Shown here: positions 16,712-17,538 of the stretch, one piece after another
Position numbering within the stretch: the stretch's first letter is position 1
Layout of the letters: each line of letters starts with the position of its first letter
Assembly: GCA_030950365.1 (NCBI GenBank)
Contig: JAUZRQ010000014.1
Location: 62,001 to 126,000 of the forward strand
DNA from: Candidatus Zhuqueibacterota bacterium
Lineage (GTDB): Bacteria; Zhuqueibacterota; Zhuqueibacteria; Zhuqueibacterales; Geothermadaptataceae
Reading direction: 5' to 3'
DNA length: 64,000 bases
The notes under the pieces: generated by a model
Seen by the model: the letters and a program-made list of their open reading frames with translations, nothing else
What the model was told of the DNA's origin: nothing
Databases searched by the model: none
Made by a program: the position numbers and the translations under genes

Positions 16712-17122
16712 TTATACATCTGCGCCGAACGGCTTCACCCGCCGCCAGTTGCCGATGACGAATAAGATCACGGCCGCGGTTTCCAGAAATCGGCCTGCGA
16801 TGATGAGCCAGGCGCTTCGTATCCACAGGTGCAACACAATCATCCCGATGCCGGTATTGAGACTCGCATAGGCCAACCAGATCCACCGCTCGTTTCCGCG
16901 CGGCGGGCCGCTGGCATACCGCGGCAATATCCAGAACGCCACCCCCATGGCCAGTTGCACCATCCAGCCCAGGAGCAGAAATTCCATGTGCCAGGGCAGC
17001 GTCAGCCAGACGACCGGCCAGAAGGAAATGCCTTTGTCCGCCAGCAGCAGGGCGCCCAGAGTGCTGCCCGCGGCAAGATGGATCAACGAGGTACGTACCA
17101 ACCAGCGACTGAGTTTTGGCAT
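16712..17122 (-). CDS. Four-helix membrane protein, tandem paralogue B (heme-copper oxidase subunit I-like)
   Basis: The start is set at 17122 (MPKLSRWLVRTSLIHLAAG), where its ATG shares one base with the stop of the gene upstream. This gives 136 aa, nearly the length of that paralogue, whereas the longer in-frame start at 17215 would overlap it. Four hydrophobic segments are visible. The core LPWHMEFLLLGWMVQLAMG then ILPRYASGPPRGNE resembles the His-containing helix and following loop of oxidase subunit I/NnrS-like proteins. It is too short to be a catalytic oxidase, so a heme- or metal-related accessory role is an inference. The two genes are translationally coupled. Confidence 0.7.
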   Translation of the reverse strand: MPKLSRWLVRTSLIHLAAGSTLGALLLADKGISFWPVVWLTLPWHMEFLLLGWMVQLAMGVAFWILPRYASGPPRGNERWIWLAYASLNTGIGMIVLHLWIRSAWLIIAGRFLETAAVILFVIGNWRRVKPFGADV

Positions 17123-17538
17123 CACTTCCCCCGTACCCGCGGCCAAATATTGACGATAAACAGCATCACGGCCAACCACTGCAGCAGCGCCGAAATGACC
17201 AGCAACCATGCCCAAACCGATTGCGTCTGCCGCATGGCTACCATCTCACCTGCTGCGCGCAGGAGCAGGCCAACATTGAACAAAACGTAGGTCGCCCAGC
17301 CGAGAGTTTCACTACCGCGGGGCTGTCCCCTGGCGTATTTTGGAAACATCCAGTAGGCCACGCCAAAAATCAGTTGGGTCAGCCAGCCAAACACCAGCAG
17401 ATGCAAATACACCGGGAACAGTCCGGCCAGACCACCTTGGCCCAACACCGGCCCAAAGGCAATCCAGATTCCCATGATCAATGAAAACGCCAGATAAACC
17501 ATGGCGGTTTTGACAAACCAGCGGGTGAGCGTCGGCAT
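17122..17538 (-). CDS. Four-helix membrane protein, tandem paralogue A (heme-copper oxidase subunit I-like)
   Basis: This 138-aa membrane protein with four hydrophobic segments is clearly paralogous to the next gene. Both start MPxLxRWxVxTxxxxLA, share GWxxQLxxGVAxWxxPxYAxGxPRGxE in the middle, and end near a WxRV motif. Here the central helix reads FPVYLHLLVFGWLTQLIFG, with one His placed as in heme-ligating helices of oxidase subunit I relatives. It is the first gene of a two-gene operon. No oxidase subunits are nearby, but c-type cytochrome maturation genes lie about 8 kb away. Function unknown. Confidence 0.72.
   Translation of the reverse strand: MPTLTRWFVKTAMVYLAFSLIMGIWIAFGPVLGQGGLAGLFPVYLHLLVFGWLTQLIFGVAYWMFPKYARGQPRGSETLGWATYVLFNVGLLLRAAGEMVAMRQTQSVWAWLLVISALLQWLAVMLFIVNIWPRVRGK

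Follow-up and report, generated by a model that had tools for sequence, protein, structure and literature searches.

On the current view, fusion of three copies of a four-helix unit gave rise to the respiratory oxidases and the nitric oxide (NO) reductases. In subunit I of the heme-copper oxidases (HCOs), the first His of the helix X HxH motif holds the high-spin heme and the second holds the low-spin heme, the other ligand of which is the His of helix II; CuB is held by His residues of helices VI and VII, and each His of helix X points into a different pore of the ring. NnrS is also HCO-like, with about 12 helices in one chain, and is tied to the NO response. Free-standing units are known as well: the single-unit HCO homology (HCOH) proteins of Pei, Li, Kinch and Grishin (2014; Protein Sci 23:1220) reportedly have four helices, are said to be most like TM9-12 of HCOs and NO reductases (NORs) and to be encoded by separate genes, and were reportedly proposed to form homo- or heterotrimers in a denitrification or NO context. 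The work of Pei et al. (2014) is cited in PMC4602095, on the YgdD trimer, and in PMC11218638.

Here we compare these systems with two adjoining genes, A and B, found in a Zhuqueibacterota genome within the window, by which we mean the whole stretch of 64,000 nucleotides that was analysed. Like the Pei-type HCOH proteins, A and B are products of separate four-helix genes and are closest to TM9-12; documented here are a complementary split of His between tandem paralogues and a link to a defined 12-helix partner protein, and these features, single-unit HCO homologues being already known, may be new. No title or abstract opening naming the pair was found, a weak negative since most journals lie outside the coverage.

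A tandem pair of four-helix membrane proteins

The pair and its main features are as follows.

17538-17122 (including stop), minus strand: gene A, 138 aa, a four-helix membrane protein and single HCO-type unit; helix 2 reads Y44-L-H46
17122-16712 (including stop), minus strand: gene B, 136 aa, a paralogue of A; helix 2 (from the alignment with A) reads H45-M-E47
17120..17124, minus strand: A/B junction TGATG, in which the stop of A (TGA) and the start of B (ATG) overlap by one base
17401..17403, minus strand: codon of A His46, which aligns with the second His position of HxH
17407..17409, minus strand: codon of A Tyr44, at the site of the first His in single-copy relatives
16988..16990, minus strand: codon of B His45 (the same in all B proteins), which aligns with the first HxH His and weakly with that of helix II in cbb3
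16982..16984, minus strand: codon of B Glu47, at the site of the second His in single-copy relatives

The first-pass annotation had read this locus as tandem duplicates of about 137 aa with four helices, joined by a one-base overlap and sharing the motifs GWxxQLxxGVAxWxxP and AxGxPRGxE, and this description holds. The minus-strand open reading frames (ORFs) encode 138 aa (A) and 136 aa (B), with a single adenine common to the TGA stop of A and the ATG of B. The two proteins are clear paralogues (35% identity and 54% positives over 142 columns, E 4e-24), both motifs are present in both (GWLTQLIFGVAYWMFP in A and GWMVQLAMGVAFWILP in B; ARGQPRGSE and ASGPPRGNE, respectively), and the AlphaFold model of A has four helices. 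The central His helix noted at the same time requires qualification: each protein does have a conserved His, but it is not the same one, as H46 of A and H45 of B are offset by two residues in the A/B alignment. The arrangement is not a matter of chance, given that the same pair occupies the same place in a sister species (L003/L015; A 80% identical) and that tandem A-B genes occur in dozens of genomes. The nearest named record to the host is a candidate division KSB1 MAG, in which A is 80% identical. The genes around the pair in the window are unrelated housekeeping genes (an SLT/LysM transglycosylase, a NamZ exo-muramidase, a TrkA-domain Na+/H+-type exchanger and an M49 peptidase), and relatives of the transglycosylase and of NamZ also flank the pair in the sister species (L015).

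A scan with an N-terminal pattern gave 47 loci, chiefly from Chloroflexi (Anaerolineae) and also from KSB1, Calditrichota, Gemmatimonadetes and Chitinophagaceae; three duplicate views of the same places (L001, L002 and L012) had been removed before loci and His were counted. The pair type accounts for 41 of the 47 loci (L015-L054 and L061; B is lost at some contig ends), and the other six are single HxH relatives. When A was searched in the host and 59 relatives, ten genomes matched, not all with the pair type, and among 297 genomes (the class of one Anaerolineae record) A had a match in 134, which was strong (E<=1e-20) in 100. A set of 40 further loci came from genomes other than those of 35 looked-up loci, with overlap possible with the few remaining ones. 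Two Gemmatimonadetes loci (L058 and L060) carry two adjoining four-helix genes that both have HxH, which shows that duplicates can also stand together with their His unsplit.

Relationship to heme-copper oxidase subunit I

A resemblance to oxidase subunit I and to NnrS had been proposed for the pair, and the profile searches supported the first of these. Pfam COX1 matched A (E 1.7e-5) and B (E 0.0056), both under the gathering cut-off, and at E<=0.01 it matched 79 of 88 family members (best 1.4e-10). A profile of the 88 members (alignment A2, 88 of 93 rows, five near-duplicates having been removed by hand) matched TM9-12 of the cbb3 subunit I (CcoN) in the PDB at E 1.1e-5. In this alignment the HxH of family helix 2 falls on the HVH of CcoN, and in a weak alignment of the same profile to TM1-4 of CcoN the helix II His falls on the first HxH position. 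Against the CcoN of the host itself, hhalign gave E 2.9e-6 for TM9-12, 0.022 for TM1-4 and 0.082 for TM5-8. A profile of B only also found CcoN in the PDB (E 0.0049) and one of A only had no HCO match there, so the combined profile of A, B and single-copy relatives was needed. NCBIfam gave nothing for A or B at E<=10. Judged from these profiles, A and B belong by homology, at the family level, to the HCO subunit I superfamily. The likeness to NnrS stood in part: NnrS (PF05940) was not among the Pfam matches of A or B at E<=10, but five of the 88 family members match it at E<=0.01 (best 9.8e-6). With NnrS, A and B have in common that they are HCO-like membrane proteins, although they themselves lack an NnrS match.

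We also considered whether B corresponds by profile to TM1-4. This was rejected, because B, like A, is closest to TM9-12, and a helix II role of B therefore leans on the position of its His and on the weak alignment.

Three 12-helix proteins (L009, L010 and L056) are matched three times in tandem by the four-helix profile, and L010 and L056, which were the two tested, exceed the Pfam COX1 cut-off; the four-helix unit is thus the repeat from which the 12-helix fold is made. Near the L056 protein are genes for a small cytochrome c and a DUF2249 protein and a single HxH four-helix gene, which recalls the NorBC arrangement. At L013/L014, a 480-aa protein with a weak COX1 match (L013; E 0.0048) is encoded directly 3' of a gene that reads as cytochrome bd subunit II-like.

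The AlphaFold model of A (pLDDT 92.4, pTM 0.86; helices 3-32, 35-64, 77-101 and 107-135) agrees with this placement. It superposed on TM9-12 of qNOR (585-743; Z 14.5, rmsd 2.5, 132 of 138 residues), on CcoN 303-463 (Z 13.5) and on bovine subunit I 333-479 (Z 12.0). Chains of cbb3, ba3 and aa3 oxidases gave Z of 11 to 14, with many HCO rows above 12; the exception among the rows listed was an aa3 row, 9f5x, which fits the model on TM1-4 (Z 13.2). Foldseek likewise placed HCOs on top (best E 0.021, none reaching E 0.001). By the tool's own warning, helical bundles may reach Z of about 13-14; here sequence and structure point to the same third, TM9-12. As modelled, A corresponds to one four-helix unit of the subunit I fold of HCOs. 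The first-pass annotation had put the pair at a fraction of the size of an oxidase, and since A aligns to TM9-12 over nearly its full length, that fraction is one repeat unit out of three.

Each of A and B, then, resembles one third of the oxidase or NO reductase core. What they share with subunit I of HCOs and NORs (CcoN, CtaD, qNOR and cNOR) is the one-third fold and the register of the helix X HxH. They differ in that each chain is a single unit, where subunit I has three, with one invariant His and no CuB/FeB set: the six conserved His, including the CuB/FeB ligands, are absent, leaving H46 in A and H45 in B. Functional HCOs and NORs have three units in a single 12-helix chain, as opposed to proteins of 138 and 136 aa with, in the model of A, four helices. 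An independent four-helix protein closest to TM9-12 is instead what reportedly defines a Pei-type HCOH protein, and A and B fit this description.

The model of A also matches mPGES-1 of the MAPEG group (Z 10.6) and styrene oxide isomerase (8pnu; Z 10.9), and the fold could in principle be put to a non-heme use, as in a membrane enzyme of MAPEG-like or isomerase-like type whose His bind the substrate or have a structural function. However, these Z values lie under the best HCO ones and inside the range flagged for helical bundles, and the frame of the HxH and the complementarity of A and B fit heme ligation. Furthermore, styrene oxide isomerase itself binds heme b, at the trimer subunit interface through H58 (PMC11374702). 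We regard a non-heme use as very improbable. The isomerase, a four-helix protein of about 170 aa, has a similar protomer fold, but it is a homotrimer and an isomerase, unlike the A/B pair. Sequence homology to it found no support (hhalign E 0.012, out of register), and we keep it as a structural analogy only; it was not among the PDB matches of profiles A2, A3 and A4 at E<=1. Its authors report no substantial DALI similarity (PMC11374702). Its H58 lies seven residues before a Gly, as does the His of B, and N99 and G101 of its NVGFY motif recall, in our reading, the conserved helix-3 N-x-G of the A/B family.

Histidines divided between two paralogues

In the alignment of 93 rows, helix 2 of A-type proteins has Y, F, V or I followed by H at the two HxH positions (42 of 42), B-type proteins have H followed by E, D or A (39 of 39), and the single-copy relatives have H at both (12 of 12). 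The conserved His on which the first-pass reading depended is thus present in every member counted, although it differs between A and B. Because the labels A, B and single had been set by motif, both in these rows and in the tree (they agree with gene order as read from the coordinates), the 40 further loci served as a test by gene order. Gene 1 has Y or F and then H in 39 of 39 cases, and the A half of a fused gene (L101) reads F-Y-H; in gene 2 the first position is always H (40 of 40) and the second is E or D in 37, F in two and H in one, with the start of gene 2 taken as the profile start and the B half of L101 counted twice. One locus (L098) holds the sole B-type protein seen with both His (HIH), beside a normal A.

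The tree was built from 92 of the 93 rows (one short row was left out) and 146 columns, including the two His columns, which makes it slightly circular. In it A (41 rows), B (39) and the singles (12) each fall on one side of a branch, with support of 96/89, 99/94 and 97/90, respectively. On this reading of alignment and tree, one duplication followed by complementary loss of His explains A and B. The gene order of the pair is constant and the gap between A and B is four bases or less in 31 of 39 further loci; in a single genome the two are fused as one ORF of 321 aa (L101:5287-6249). Taken together, the split His, the single duplication, the tight coupling and the natural fusion in L101 are in our view good evidence for an A-B heteromer, and there is fair evidence that both His would serve one common site. 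The first-pass suggestion of a possible heterodimeric heme protein thus withstood the checks. As the His that would hold a heme are divided between them, A and B probably function only as a pair, perhaps in the handling of NO or nitrite.

From these patterns we infer a heteromer, its orientation, a heme with its ligands and a role in NO metabolism, as follows. The A and B units would assemble together in the cytoplasmic membrane, where one more unit, probably a second copy of A or of B, would close a three-unit ring. A would give the His corresponding to the low-spin heme ligand of HCO helix X (we take A His46 to occupy that ligand position), and B would give the His at the other position, the one lining up with the low-spin ligand of helix II. 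Between them A and B would hold one bis-His heme b at their interface, a heme site that in the 12-helix oxidases is formed by a single polypeptide. In adjacent A and B units the second-position His of A and the first-position His of B would face the same pore, and the remaining pores would lose one or both ligands; the complementarity of the two His would follow from this neighbouring placement around one pore. Such a heme b in the membrane might serve in electron transfer or in the binding of NO.

A more far-reaching version can be drawn from the same geometry. A ring of A, B and a third A or B would contain the bis-His heme b pore and, in addition, a His/Tyr (A-A) or His/Glu (B-B) pore, whose five-coordinate heme might bind or reduce NO, making the complex a split NO reductase. 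We consider this quite a long shot.

The 12-helix partner and the role of the pair

Unrelated contexts in other genomes would have spoken against the first-pass reading of the locus; in fact, the context of the pair is non-random, and one partner recurs. This commonest neighbour, a membrane protein some 350-410 aa long, is found at 18 of the 41 loci and 28 of the 40 further loci. Two copies are referred to below.

L028:4206-5267: 12-helix partner, the copy used for the model (the partner lies at 17 further pair loci)
L105:1420-2562: 12-helix partner in the sister genome G001, adjoining an ORF that reads as cupin-like

In Pfam two members of the partner family had no match and a third had weak matches, the L028 copy had no NCBIfam match, and NnrS matched 2 of 17 members (best E 0.0017). 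The model of the L028 copy (pLDDT 95.0) is nevertheless a complete 12-helix HCO fold; Z is 29.6 against CcoN (344 residues) and 27.7 against cNOR, and the best Foldseek E is 3.3e-4. Its conserved His are H45 in helix 2, which is invariant, and H269 and H283 in helix 10 (90% or more). As we read the register, H45 and H269 of the partner occupy the positions where B and A, respectively, keep their His. The partner seems to be without the first His of helix X. It co-occurs with the pair in 83 of 100 pair genomes as against 28 of 197 others (p 6e-32; raw counts, kinship ignored). It was not found in the host genome (G000), which is 95% complete, and is present in G001.

NirS or NirK is encoded in 46 of 100 pair genomes and in 17 of 197 others (p 5.5e-13; raw counts, kinship ignored), with NirK counted where its match exceeded the family cut-off (39 of 65 matching genomes) and NirS at E<=1e-20 (30 genomes); matches to both are missing in 54 of the 100. 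No association of the pair with Nir apart from the partner was seen: Nir is found in 3 of 17 pair genomes that lack the partner. Close to the pair, Nir-like genes occur at 12 of the 41 loci (NirK-like at eight, NirS-like at four), and a convincing Nir gene occurs at two of the 40 further loci, which have shorter flanks (one NirK and one NirS, a second NirS match being the same ORF as the NirK). CRP-type regulators lie near the pair at 15 of the 41 loci and DUF2249 genes at nine, neighbour families having been assigned from one member each; the shorter flanks of the 40 further loci hold CRP-type regulators at 14, cupins at 13 and DUF2249 at seven. DUF2249 is tied to denitrification and the HCO superfamily in PMC11218638. 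Regulation through an FNR/DNR box was considered and dropped: TTGA-N6-TCAA lies upstream of A at 3 of 40 starts and at none in the window, which is about the background frequency (15 sites in 523 kb of the same sequences; 2.5 kb upstream of A was scanned, less at contig ends).

True HCOs are present in 96 of 100 pair genomes and in 103 of 197 others (raw counts, kinship ignored; of 215 genomes, the 16 whose COX1 matches were weakest were excluded), so the pair tracks true HCOs and aerobic respiration may be the real correlate. This bears on the main rival explanation, in which A and B are an accessory or assembly factor of terminal oxidases, engaged in heme or copper insertion or in protection from NO, with no nitrogen-oxide pathway of their own. 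The host would suit such a role: its full-length HCOs, as found in G000, are one aa3-type and one cbb3-type oxidase, and NirS and NirK had no match in G000 or in the sister genome G001 (at the threshold used there the NirS search matched no control genome; the same search matched 30 of the 297 Anaerolineae-class genomes). SCO/PCuAC copper chaperones also lie near some pairs, and the pair of L068 has a gene for subunit I of an aa3-type oxidase in its vicinity (L068:7525-9273), the sole one among 81 loci. Against this, an oxidase subunit I ORF like those of the host (BLAST E<=1e-15) is near the pair at 0 of 41 and 1 of 40 loci, as compared with the 18 of 41 and 28 of 40 for the partner, and the link with Nir persists among HCO-positive genomes (46 of 96 with the pair and 16 of 103 without; odds ratio 5.0). 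We think an accessory role rather unlikely, and it is the genomic company of the pair that leads us to favour NO or nitrite handling.

Another explanation takes the Nir association further, with an A/B ring whose five-coordinate heme binds or reduces NO and so replaces the missing NO reductase in NirS- or NirK-bearing Chloroflexi. Schwartz et al. (PMC8756737) state that most genomes with a chimeric NirS are without a nor gene, and NirS of the chimeric type is found here, as read from sequence (Pfam was run on L036 only, and in the L029 genome the NirS frame is in pieces). In addition, qNOR is the best structural match of A, though tied with others. Nevertheless, A and B have no CuB/FeB ligand set and one invariant His each, and the pair is present in many genomes without Nir, so that we hold this explanation to be improbable.

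The reading we prefer, and which we judge to be an even call, is that A and B together make up a heteromeric heme-b protein of the membrane that rebuilds the low-spin heme site of the oxidases and takes part in NO or nitrite handling together with the 12-helix partner. The complex would act with this HCO-fold protein, which keeps the same two His positions, and its most likely role would be NO detoxification or a heme-based electron transfer that protects the respiratory chain.

Free units that divide the His of HxH between them are a natural test of ring formation and of the assignment of each His to its heme site. In Chloroflexi the presence of nirS with NOR reported missing is an open question (PMC8756737), and the pair and its 12-helix partner are candidates for the missing parts of nitrite and NO handling there. 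If the split NO reductase were real, it would be a living example of the stage before the fusion of the three-unit HCO core, and it would provide those denitrifying Chloroflexi that seemingly have no NOR with their NO step.
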